DNA from: Candidatus Mediterraneibacter avicola
Lineage (GTDB): Bacteria; Bacillota; Clostridia; Lachnospirales; Lachnospiraceae
Direction: 5' to 3'
NCBI GenBank assembly: GCA_019115385.1
Contig: DXDR01000062.1
Span: 1-34,444, forward strand
DNA: 34,444 bases
Shown: positions 21,957 to 29,819 of the stretch, in pieces
Numbering within the stretch: position 1 is the first letter of the stretch
Layout: each line of letters begins with the position of its first letter
Made by a program: the position numbers and the translations under genes
The notes under the pieces: model-generated
What the model saw: only the letters and a program-made list of their open reading frames with translations
Database searches by the model: none
Told to the model about the DNA's origin: nothing

Positions 21957-22685
21957 TTATTTTCCGGTATGAAGCAGCTCATTTGCATTCCTGACGCGCT
22001 CATTTGTGGGTGGCTCAATCCCTGCCAGCGGATAATCGTAGCCCAGTTCTTTCCACTTGTATTCTCCAAGTGTATGATATGGGAGCACTTCCACCTTTTG
22101 TATATTTTTTAATCCTTTTATAAAATTATAAAGTTGCTTAAGATATTTATCTTCGTCATTTCTTTCAGGAACAAGCACATGGCGGATCCAGACAGGTTTG
22201 TCTATATCTGACAGATATTGTGCCATATCCAGAATATTTACATTGGTATGCCCGGTCAATATTCTGTGCTGTTCCTCATCTATATGCTTTAGATCAACGA
22301 GAAGAAGATCTGTATAATTCATCAATTCGTTAAACTTTCCGAAAAAGGGATCGTTCCTGGTAAACGGCGCACCACTTGTGTCTATCGTAGTATGGATTCC
22401 CTCTTTTTTGGCCTTTTTAAAAAGTTCAATCAGAAAATCCATCTGCATCAGCGGCTCGCCTCCGCTCACTGTGATCCCTCCCCCGTCCTTCCAGTAGGTC
22501 CGATAGCGCAGCGCCATCTGAATCAGTTCATCCACACTGCGCTTCTCTCCATCCATCATATTCCACGTATCAGGATTATGACAGAACTGACAGCGCATTG
22601 GACATCCGCTCACAAAAATCACAAAACGCACTCCTGGACCGTCCACAGAGCCAAAACTCTCAGTAGAATGAATAAAACCTTGCAT
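21957..22685 (-). CDS. pflA: Pyruvate formate-lyase activating enzyme
   Basis: PflA is the radical SAM enzyme that generates the glycyl radical of PflB. The 242 residues begin MQGFIHSTESFGSVDGPGVRFVIFVSGC and carry the CX3CX2C cluster motif (C28, C32, C35 in CPMRCQFC). The glycine-rich SAM stretch GGGITVSGGEPLMQ and LDLLLVDLKHIDEEQHRILTG-like sequences follow. A longer frame reaches 22724, but AAAGGAG stands 5 bases before the ATG at 22685. It follows pflB after 247 bases. That gap is largely filled by a palindromic element whose edge nearly touches the pflA RBS (about 6 bases), an arrangement that could affect pflA expression. Confidence 0.95.
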   Translation of the reverse strand: MQGFIHSTESFGSVDGPGVRFVIFVSGCPMRCQFCHNPDTWNMMDGEKRSVDELIQMALRYRTYWKDGGGITVSGGEPLMQMDFLIELFKKAKKEGIHTTIDTSGAPFTRNDPFFGKFNELMNYTDLLLVDLKHIDEEQHRILTGHTNVNILDMAQYLSDIDKPVWIRHVLVPERNDEDKYLKQLYNFIKGLKNIQKVEVLPYHTLGEYKWKELGYDYPLAGIEPPTNERVRNANELLHTGK

Positions 22686-22698
22686 CTTTTCTCCTTTC

Positions 22699-22927
22699 GG
22701 GGACGTAGTAAAGTTGAATTTCACTACGTCCCTAACTGAAATCAGCCCTGTCCCTTTTTTACTTTTGCCATGTCCCCTTCAGCAAAATGCACAATTTCAT
22801 TGTTAAAATACTCCGATAAACCGCTTCATAATTGTACACTTTTTATCAAGGGACACGGTGACTATCAAAAAGGGACAGGGCAAATCCTCAACGGGGACGT
22901 AGTAAAATCGAATTTTACTACGTCCCC
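22699..22927. repeat. 229-nt nested palindromic element between pflB and pflA
   Basis: At each end is a hairpin: 22699-22732 (GGGACGTAGT/ACTACGTCCC) and 22893-22927 (16-bp perfect arms GGGGACGTAGTAAAAT). Inside, GCCCTGTCCCTTTTT (22745-22759) is the exact reverse complement of 22867-22881. Both pairs share the centre 22813, and the sequence between them remains partly complementary, so the whole element is one imperfect palindrome. No ORF is credible. This is the shape of a MITE or a REP doublet. The inner arms share AAAAAGGGACAG with the repeat at 21849. Confidence 0.75.
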
Positions 22928-22932
22928 GAAAA

Positions 22933-25191
22933 TTACATTCTATCGTGGCAGGTTCTTGCGATTACGTCCATCTGCTGTTCTTTTGTCAGGTCGATGAACT
23001 TCACGGCATATCCGGATACGCGGATTGTGAAGTTTGCGTATTCTTCTTTTTCCGGATGTTCCATTGCGTCGATCAGTTTTTCTGTTCCGAATACGTTTAC
23101 ATTCAGGTGATGTGCCCCCTGATCGAAGTAACCGTCAAGCACGTGAACGAGATTGTTCTTTCTTTCGCTATCGTCATGTCCCAGTGCTCCCGGGCTGATA
23201 GTCTGCGTATTGGAAATTCCGTCAAGCGCCTGTTCATAAGGCAGTTTTGCAACGGAGTTTAGGGAAGCCAACAGTCCGTTCTTTTCTGCGCCGTAGGACG
23301 GATTCGCTCCCGGCGCCAGCGGCTCTCCTCCTTTTCTTCCGTCCGGAAGAGATCCTGTAGCCTTACCGTATACGACGTTGGAGGTAATGGTAAGGATAGA
23401 AGTTGTCGGCTCGGAATTTCTGTATGTGTGGCATTTTTTCAGCTTGCTCATGAATGTGCGGAGCAGCCATACCGCAATCTCATCTGCACGCTCGTCATCG
23501 TTTCCGTATCTCGGGAAGTCGCCCTCTACCTCATAGTCAACGGCAAGTCCGTCGTCGTCGCGGATTACTTTTACTTTCGCATATTTGATCGCACTTAAGG
23601 AGTCGACCACATGTGAGAATCCTGCGATACCGGTTGCGAACGTACGTCTCACATTTGTGTCAATAAGCGCCATCTCAGCAGCTTCATAATAATACTTGTC
23701 ATGCATGTAGTGGATCATATTCAGTGTATCTACATACAGCTTGGACAGCCACTCCATCATCTGATCGTATTTTTCCATAACTTCGTCATAGTCAAGGTAC
23801 TCAGATGTGATCGGTCTGTACAGCGGAGATACCTGCTGTTTTGTCTTCTCATCAACGCCGCCGTTGATCGCGTAGAGAAGGCATTTTGCCAGGTTTGCGC
23901 GGGCTCCGAAGAACTGGATCTCTTTTCCTGTCTCTGTTGCGGATACGCAGCAGCAGATGGAGTAGTCGTCGCCCCATACCGGACGCATTACATCGTCATT
24001 CTCGTACTGGATGGAACTTGTCTTAACAGAAATATAAGCCGCATATTTCTTGAAGTTCTCCGGCAGGTGTGAGGAGTACAGTACTGTCAGGTTCGGCTCC
24101 GGCGACGGTCCCATATTCTCCAGTGTGTGAAGGAAACGGTAATCGTTCTTCGTTACCATATGGCGTCCGTCCATTCCGATTCCTGCCATCTCCAGTGTCG
24201 CCCATACCGGGTCGCCGGAGAACAGCTCGTTGTAAGACGGAATTCTTGCAAATTTTACCATACGGAACTTCATAACCATGTGATCGATCAGTTCCTGTGC
24301 CTGCTCCTCAGTCAGAGTTCCGTTTTCCAGATCTCTCTGAATATAAATGTCAAGGAATGTGGAAACACGCCCTACGCTCATTGCCGCGCCGTTCTGCGTC
24401 TTGATCGCCGCAAGATAACCGAAGTACAGCCACTGAACTGCCTCTTTCGCATTCTTTGCCGGCTGGGAGATATCATATCCGTAGACGGAAGCCATCTCCT
24501 TCATACCCTGAAGAGCCCGGATCTGATCTGCGATCTCTTCGCGGAGACGGAAATCTGTTCCCTTCATTCCGTGTCTCTCGTACTCAACGAAATCAGACTG
24601 TTTCTTCTCGATCAGATAATCAATTCCGTAGAGAGCCACGCGGCGGTAGTCGCCGACGATACGGCCTCTTCCGTATGTATCCGGAAGTCCTGTGATAATC
24701 TTGTTGTGACGGGCTTTTTTCATTTCCGGTGTATAAATATCAAATACAGCCTGGTTGTGTGTTTTATGATATACTGTAAAGATTTCATGCAGTTTTTCAC
24801 TTGGTGTGTAACCGTATGTCGTACAAGCCTGCTCAGCCATTTTAATCCCGCCGTAAGGCATAAACGCTCTCTTAAGCGGCTTGTCCGTCTGAAGGCCCAC
24901 AACCTGCTCCAGGTCTTTCATCTCCTCATTGATGTATCCCGAGCCATATGCTGTCAGCCCTGACACCACCTCAGTCTCCATATCCAGAACGCCGCCTTTC
25001 GCGCGCTCTTCTTTCTGAAGTTTCTGCAGTTCTCCCCACAGTTTATCCGTTGCTTCTGTCGGACCCGCAAGGAAAGATTCGTCTCCGTCATACTGTGTAT
25101 AATTGTTCTGAATAAAGTCGCGAACATTGACTTCCTCTTTCCAGAGCTTTCCGTTAAAGCCTGCCCACTGGTCAAAATTTGCTTTTGCCAT
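22933..25191 (-). CDS. pflB: Formate C-acetyltransferase (pyruvate formate-lyase)
   Basis: PflB cleaves pyruvate with CoA into acetyl-CoA and formate, a core step of anaerobic mixed-acid fermentation. The 752-residue protein is full length. The catalytic cysteines lie in [23 protein letters not shown] (C413-C415). The glycyl-radical motif RVSGYAVKF near the C-terminus has the radical glycine at about residue 727. GGAGGAGG precedes the ATG at 25191. It has a strong promoter at 25273-25301 and is followed by the activase gene pflA, so the pair is complete. The stop codon lies only 5 bases from the edge of the palindromic element at 22699-22927. Confidence 0.97.
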
Positions 25192-29626: not shown

Positions 29627-29642
29627 TTCTTTATATAGAAAC

Positions 29643-29819
29643 GTAGATAGAGGTTGCATTTTTTATGAGTAAGGTGAAGGATGTATCAGGGACAGAGGAA
29701 TTCATCTGAAAGGGGAAAATGCCGAAAGGGTAAGGATCCTGAGGTCTTATTCTTGGGCATGGCGTGAAAAACGTCATGACTGTCATCGCAGGATGGAGAG
29801 CTATCTGAATATATACAGC
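29643..29819 (+). ncRNA. Lysine riboswitch (L box)
   Basis: The conserved blocks appear in order: AGAGGTTGC (29649-29657), GAGTAAGGTGAAGGAT, CATCTGAAAGGGGAAAATGC and CCGAAAGGG, then TTGGGCATGGCG, CTGTCATCGCAGGATGGAGAG. The ends AGATAG (29645-29650) and CTATCT (29811-29816) form the P1 stem. Lysine riboswitches lower expression of lysine synthesis or transport genes when lysine is abundant. The following gene is dapA, which fits, and a terminator at 29842-29869 supplies the off state. Confidence 0.9.

Follow-up and report, generated by a model that had tools for sequence, protein, structure and literature searches.

REP elements occur inside operons of E. coli, such as malE-malF, where the intercistronic palindrome is thought to stabilise the upstream cistron; both the repeat family and the host differ from those of the palindrome that we describe here, which lies between pflB and pflA of Candidatus Mediterraneibacter avicola. 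REP/RAYT and TIR/TIRYT systems are already known (PMC3733652, PMC8266576, PMC6006769, PMC8049555; here and below, comparisons apply to the available parts of the cited texts). In REPINs and their RAYTs, a non-autonomous, inverted doublet of palindromes coexists with a transposase gene at one locus (PMC3116915, PMC8049555), and there are fewer repeats where the transposase is missing (PMC8049555); the element at pfl resembles them in each of these respects. It differs from REPINs in that its GTAG lies within the paired stem and is not an unpaired tag, in that the composite has extra boxes, and in that a high-copy genome contains 6–30 hairpins, where E. coli genomes have at least 69 REPINs (PMC8049555). 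TIRtrons and their TIRYTs (Di Nocera et al. 2013, PMC3733652; subclass 2.1 of Quentin et al. 2018, PMC6006769) offer a second likeness, i.e., a Y1 transposase situated between long TIRs with a GGGGWSAS-type motif; as here, solitary and dimeric TIR copies are dispersed in some genomes, and double palindromic TIRs are mentioned (PMC3733652, PMC6006769).

Neither Clostrid nor Firmicutes occurs as a term in PMC3733652, and the available text of PMC3733652 and PMC6006769 makes no mention of the 22-nt phasing, the fixed-length core or the inverted TGCACAA of the pfl element. The C-terminal HTH that the available part of PMC6006769 gives for TIRYT subclass 2.1 was not detected by Pfam in the transposase associated with our element: at E-values up to 5, no HTH was returned for any of four proteins (this transposase, the genome's second Y1 protein and two relatives). 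The element differs from the known REP and TIR systems in its host group, strict phasing, fixed core and history at pfl, and a literature search that was broad in part, and that lay mostly outside the subscription literature, found no paper on these repeats in Lachnospiraceae. It extends the REP/TIR kind of system into gut Lachnospiraceae, and its 22-nt phasing and fixed core predict what the transposase binds.

The site itself also has a described counterpart. In E. coli, the pflB-pflA gap contains a strong terminator and an RNase III site, and cleavage stabilises the pflB mRNA (PMC5371410). The terminator and the RNase III-cleaved duplex lie at the same place as our palindrome, for which a duplex is predicted only; the available part of that paper names no repeat element, and the comparison is one of descriptions. 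We think it likely, if well short of certain, that the palindrome is a long-lived transposase-dependent element that has secondarily been put to use as an RNA signal that splits the operon in favour of pflB over pflA. The history of the element as DNA is well supported, and its RNA function at pfl is something that we infer, as are the chemistry of transposition, the direction of the earliest steps and every other effect at the RNA level.

The window, i.e., the whole 34,444-nt stretch of DNA that was analysed, is contig 49 of the host genome (G000; 2.58 Mb in 98 contigs). Both genes lie on its minus strand: pflB, encoding formate C-acetyltransferase (22933–25191; NCBIfam TIGR01255, over the cut-off), and pflA, encoding the pyruvate formate-lyase-activating enzyme (21957–22685; NCBIfam TIGR02493, over the cut-off), whose ribosome-binding site GGAG occupies 22691–22694. 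A GTG at 22724 that had been listed as the start of pflA lies inside the palindrome and is a mechanical assignment; the ATG at 22685 was taken instead. Between the genes lies a nested palindrome of 229 nt (22699–22927), and the repeat search and the sequence bear out what had been claimed for it, i.e., two hairpin copies and a 15-bp exact inverted repeat (22745–22759 and 22867–22881) that share one centre, 22813. The repeat search placed the outer arms at 22695–22732 and 22894–22931 (38 nt, 89% complementary), the inner arms at 22745–22796 and 22830–22881 (52 nt, 71% complementary), and the local hairpins at 22700–22715/22717–22732 and 22892–22908/22912–22928. The RNA folding energy of the palindrome is −103.4 kcal/mol (z = −13.3), and none of 200 dinucleotide shuffles folded to so low an energy.

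Because the pfl genes are on the minus strand, the hairpin at 22893–22927 (h1) is transcribed first; it adjoins the pflB stop codon and has a GGGGACGTAGT stem, with GTAG within the stem. The other terminal hairpin (h2, 22699–22733, minus strand) lies directly ahead of the pflA ribosome-binding site (GAAAGGAG). Between them are two pairs of boxes, given here as read on the mRNA (minus) strand: unit 1 comprises GCCCTGTCCCTTTTT on the pflB side (22867–22881), 22 nt from h1, and AAAAAGGGACAGGGC, with which it pairs, on the pflA side (22745–22759); unit 2, 22 nt from unit 1, comprises ACCGTGTCCC on the pflB side (22850–22859) and GGGGACATGG on the pflA side (22768–22777). When the copies of GTCCC (starting at 22728, 22750 and 22772) and of GGGAC (starting at 22850, 22872 and 22894) are followed across the palindrome, their spacing is exactly 22 nt. 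The core between the innermost boxes (22778–22849) is 72 nt long here and 70–74 nt in relatives of the main length class, and its sequence drifts. Eleven nucleotides into the core, the mRNA strand reads TGTACAA (22832–22838), of which TGCACAA is the commonest form in relatives, and the inverted partner reads TTGTGCA (22788–22794); on the forward strand the pair appears as TTGTACA and TGCACAA, respectively, and its centre is that of the palindrome. By eye, TGCACAA was also weighed as a possible DnaA box and given up, since the bases ahead of it do not fit; the idea that the core retains vestiges of a transposase gene, checked only by inspection, was dropped too. Searching the whole window against Rfam at the gathering threshold gave no match to the palindrome, the sole match being a lysine riboswitch elsewhere (29640–29811, plus strand, 116.8 bits), and a promoter scan of 22600–23050 gave nothing on the pfl strand, its two weak matches lying on the plus strand.

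The host genome contains 14 hairpins of the type GGGACGYAGY...RCTRCGTCCC, two of them at pfl, two flanking a transposase and ten elsewhere. This transposase is a 272-aa Y1 protein encoded beside glyS, with copies of the hairpin and boxes on either side, and contains a Y1_Tnp (IS200-like) domain (PF01797, 29 bits against a cut-off of 23); relatives at 68–80% identity occur in Mediterraneibacter, Lachnoclostridium, Clostridium sp. Marseille-P3244 and uncultured relatives. Against the NCBIfam model REP_Tyr_transpos (NF047646) its E-value is 1.2e-19, but its score of 70.6 bits is below the curated cut-off of 80. As in RAYTs, it is a single-copy gene at a vertically inherited locus: it adjoins glyS in all 44 loci tested (a first search gave 34 loci, of which ten distant ones were omitted and 24 kept, and 20 further loci were added, with some genomes represented twice), and also in G016 and G048. 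Contrary to a single copy, G031 and G051 have a second close transposase copy or fragment elsewhere. The tag that defines GTAG-tagged REPs, an unpaired GTAG at the foot of the hairpin, is absent. Hairpins lie within 100 nt of the transposase on both sides in 38 of the 44 loci and on one side in the other six.

The original prediction saw in the palindrome the shape of a MITE or REP doublet mobilised in trans, for example by a REP-associated transposase, and suggested looking for a TnpA_REP gene in the genome; a RAYT-type Y1 gene lies beside glyS. The repeat family and the hairpins flanking this transposase in the same genome support the view, drawn from sequence comparison, that the palindrome is a REP-doublet- or MITE-like member of a family linked to a RAYT-type transposase; no support was found for an insertion here that is recent or freely mobile. 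The genome also encodes a second, distant RAYT-like transposase, about 40% identical to the first (contig C75; L063, 203–1102, minus strand), with a GGGGTCAGACCCC palindrome beside it. Contig C58 ends exactly at a hairpin (L058), and such repeats therefore probably break these assemblies.

The arrangement of hairpins and boxes recurs with little variation. Among 33 composites at pfl, the spacing is 22 nt in 55 of 56 cases for the GTCCC boxes of the 5′ side and in 59 of 61 for the GGGAC boxes of the 3′ side; 11 composites outside pfl, from nine genomes and with six at one site common to six genomes, give 22 of 22 and 18 of 21, respectively. Around the hairpins of G000 itself, each GGGACA/TGTCCC box within 60 nt sits at 22 or 44, and the copies L060 and L061 have no such box within this distance. 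The two hairpins of a pfl composite are 171–173 (six genomes), 192–196 (24), 217 (two) or 223 nt (one) apart, as if whole 22-nt units had been gained or lost. T..ACAA occurs 10–12 nt from the 5′ edge of the core in 26 of the 32 pfl cores that could be delimited (one of the 33 could not), and 14 of these cores show a loose TTGT..A close to the 3′ edge; outside pfl, these motifs are present in 9 and 10 of the 11 composites. Because composites elsewhere have the same architecture, the pfl copy is not special in its design. The shared site outside pfl lies 3′ of an L-fucose isomerase gene (L229–L233 and L236, the gene being identified by Pfam on L233 only), where each of the six genomes has a second composite.

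What has been conserved in these copies is the sequence of the hairpins and boxes, and not merely their pairing, across diverged species, while the core is largely unconserved. In an alignment of 24 of the 33 pfl composites (the 227–231-nt class), the innermost 3′-side boxes are GGGGACAG, GGGGACAC or GGGGACAT in 23; these innermost boxes fit the TIR motif GGGGWSAS, although a strict fit fails for the GGGGACAT boxes and for the hairpin itself (GGGGACGT). Changes on both sides were found in 2 of 44 predicted pairs in the same alignment, so that covariation is almost nil, and compensatory change, being too rare, was abandoned as proof of RNA structure. Conservation of the sequence itself is what would be expected of DNA recognition rather than of RNA function.

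Hairpin counts separate the 58 genomes of the genus into 37 with 6–30 copies and 21 with 0–3. The cognate transposase (at least 56% identity) is present in 32 of the 37 high-copy genomes and in none of the 21 low-copy genomes (Fisher test, 2e-11, uncorrected for phylogeny); among the 32, G003 has a fragment only and G007, G016, G045 and G049 have an in-frame stop. In the five high-copy genomes without it, there is no clear glyS match (G032, G041, G056), a contig ends inside glyS (G034), or glyS is present without the transposase (G029). Six of the low-copy genomes have a distant homologue (36–43%), four of them with a single hairpin at pfl (G010, G022, G035, G037). All 33 pfl composites are in genomes with at least six hairpins, and all 13 single or decayed pfl hairpins are in genomes with at most three hairpins and no cognate transposase. 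Sixteen of the 21 low-copy genomes have any such hairpin; in 13 of these the pfl hairpin is among the one to three that are left, and in six it is the sole one. Where the glyS site lacks the transposase, a single hairpin persists in G033 and G036 and a decayed one in G035, and the site bears no hairpin scar in the other transposase-free genomes. On the pfl tree, several branches of which are weak, Fitch counts gave 10 changes for the presence of the composite (500 label shuffles: mean 16.7, minimum 10) and 14 for that of the cognate transposase.

A pflA query matched 54 of the 58 genomes, the host's own included; G036 (contig end) and G047 (weak short match) were unreadable, leaving 52 gaps, of which 33 hold a composite, 13 a single or decayed hairpin (G037, G039, G010, G033, G013, G050, G022, G019, G035, G017, G011, G030, G009) and six none (G020, G023, G012, G021, G018, G055). 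The original prediction held that a single genome copy conserved at the same site in all relatives would point to a fixed operon RNA; the site is largely conserved, with a composite of diverged centre in 33 of the 52 gaps, and the genome holds 14 hairpins rather than a single copy. Because the composite is so widespread and its centre so diverged, there was no recent insertion at pfl. Since there are gapless or hairpin-free relatives, the element is dispensable rather than essential. In G012, G021 and G018 the gap is only 1–6 nt; in G012, which on the pfl tree is surrounded by close relatives that carry the composite, a single base separates the pflB stop from the pflA start, and this looks like a clean loss but could be an assembly effect. 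The gaps of G020 and G023 contain another hairpin and, by eye, a possible remnant of the h2 end.

Single hairpins appear to derive from composites in some genomes: in G010 and G013 the gap holds a composite that has decayed to one hairpin, and in G035 the single hairpin still lies between the outer flanks of the two hairpins seen in its relatives. In 6 of the 13 singles, both stem arms have changed together, to GCAG/CTGC, with the stem kept, and two more have changed in one arm only; among the composites, both arms have changed in 0 of 33 and one arm in one (G048). Because the six GCAG/CTGC singles fall into about three clusters on the pfl tree, they are not six independent events. Beyond the genus, the hairpin GGACGYAG...CTRCGTCC was found in none of 29 loci, each scanned over its full length (25 of them have pflA close by and four do not; all were taken from the best 30 places, own included, among the best-matching pflB genes). 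By eye, these loci include several unrelated terminator-like hairpins and several nearly gapless gene pairs, and the pflB-pflA gap of G095, from another genus (L207), holds a different hairpin, GGGGTCTGACCCC...GGGTCAGACCCC, which suggests convergent use of such repeats.

On the reading that we prefer, the palindrome would be a non-autonomous element of the REP/TIR family, served by a cognate Y1 transposase of the RAYT/TIRYT type. Probably one or a few insertions between a tightly packed pflB and pflA early in the genus were followed by inheritance. The presence of the transposase would keep the element uniform in sequence; upon its loss, the composite would collapse to one hairpin and most of the repeat population would vanish, the pfl hairpin often being retained as an intrinsic-terminator-like stem. 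In the mRNA, a structure that follows the pflB stop and immediately precedes the pflA ribosome-binding site would most likely separate two messages, by partial termination and/or cleavage of the long duplex, protecting the 3′ end of pflB and keeping pflA, which is needed only catalytically, at a lower level.

A terminator scan found no intrinsic terminator on the pfl strand of the window copy, where no T-run follows h1. A run of T5 or more directly follows the hairpin in 9 of the 13 singles (T4 or more in 10, with no real T-run in G039, G033 and G035); in composites, h1 is followed by T5 or more in 8 of 33 and by T4 or more in 12, and T5 or more follows none of the ten other copies in G000 on either strand (one copy being visible on one side only). 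RNA folding predicts a long duplex in the pflB-pflA gap, with the outer arms paired at long range in the minimum-energy folds of all 24 composites, and this duplex may act as an RNase III processing site. The T-runs after single hairpins, together with the E. coli parallel in the available part of PMC5371410, lead us to prefer operon splitting that favours pflB. By analogy, the palindrome may tune the PflB:PflA ratio, as the original prediction proposed, toward more enzyme than activator.

An element with its transposase, a single hairpin without it, and no hairpin form a natural series at one metabolic operon, so that the reasons why bacteria keep RAYT-type transposases and repeats, and the use that hosts make of them, become directly testable. 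A stronger reading, which we put forward tentatively, is that a transposase-dependent repeat became part of an operon of central metabolism, kept its strict 22-nt phasing for as long as the transposase persisted, and then outlived it, and that the collapsed hairpin has been retuned as a pflB terminator, through the paired change from GTAG to GCAG and a T-run. Bolder still is the notion that the family was seeded from an ancestral pflB terminator, which is prompted by the six transposase-free genomes whose sole hairpin of this type is the one at pfl.

It is also conceivable, though we think it unlikely, that the pfl copy is selfish or structural DNA, i.e., one of several old transposase-linked elements that is tolerated and has no useful RNA role. 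The 11 composites outside pfl (nine genomes, six copies at the fucose isomerase site), the conservation of primary sequence rather than pairing, and the existence of compact pflB-pflA gaps without the element all fit such an account. It does not, however, lead one to expect that the pfl hairpin would be so regularly among the last survivors in low-copy genomes (13 of the 16 that have any), nor that the singles would have a T-run in 9 of 13 cases and the paired arm change in 6.

Repeated independent insertion at a hotspot, in place of one insertion inherited vertically, seems to us rather improbable. The deep lineages G011, G017, G009 and G048 have different junction sequences, hairpins of different families occupy one place (L059) in G000, G023 and G028, and another genus has the GGGGTCTGACCCC hairpin in its pfl gap; but within clades the junctions are held in common (CGGGGACG... 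and ...GTCCCCGAAAGGAG) and the cores can be aligned. A dedicated cis-regulatory RNA of the pfl operon, riboswitch-like or protein-binding and unrelated to mobile DNA, would account for the position of the element, which is unchanged in most of the gaps read in the genus, but is very improbable, given the occurrence of this hairpin at other loci and on both sides of the transposase, the lack of an Rfam match at the gathering threshold and a core whose sequence is largely unconserved.

Outside pfl, flanking sequences from eight sites at which G000 has a single copy were used as queries against 14 selected congeners, and 30 congener loci were compared, giving 28 readable rows and 27 site-genome pairs (G032 appears twice; further hits were left out). 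The pstA-pstB site, compared in 11 genomes, is empty in G042, G020, G023 and G057, holds an intact hairpin in G004, G040 and G032, and a degenerate one in G056, G052, G041 and G003. The L060 site (seven genomes) has the hairpin in G031 and lacks it in six, and the L062 site, compared in one genome, has none. At the L059 site (eight genomes), four are short and empty (G003, G004, G057, G042) and four have other sequence, which in G023 and G028 clearly includes hairpins of different families. Given such empty sites in relatives, the distribution of the single copies is that of insertions, of which some are old. One composite pair in two genomes is 81% identical over about 230 bp, and its flanks do not align. 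The three hairpin families at the L059 site, in G000, G023 and G028, have a shared flank like TTCACAGA.TTTTCACA. Directly beside the hairpins L059, L060 and L061 of G000 there is a motif like TGTGAAAAAACTGTGAA, a possible target sequence that G057 has at its pstA-pstB site with no hairpin beside it.
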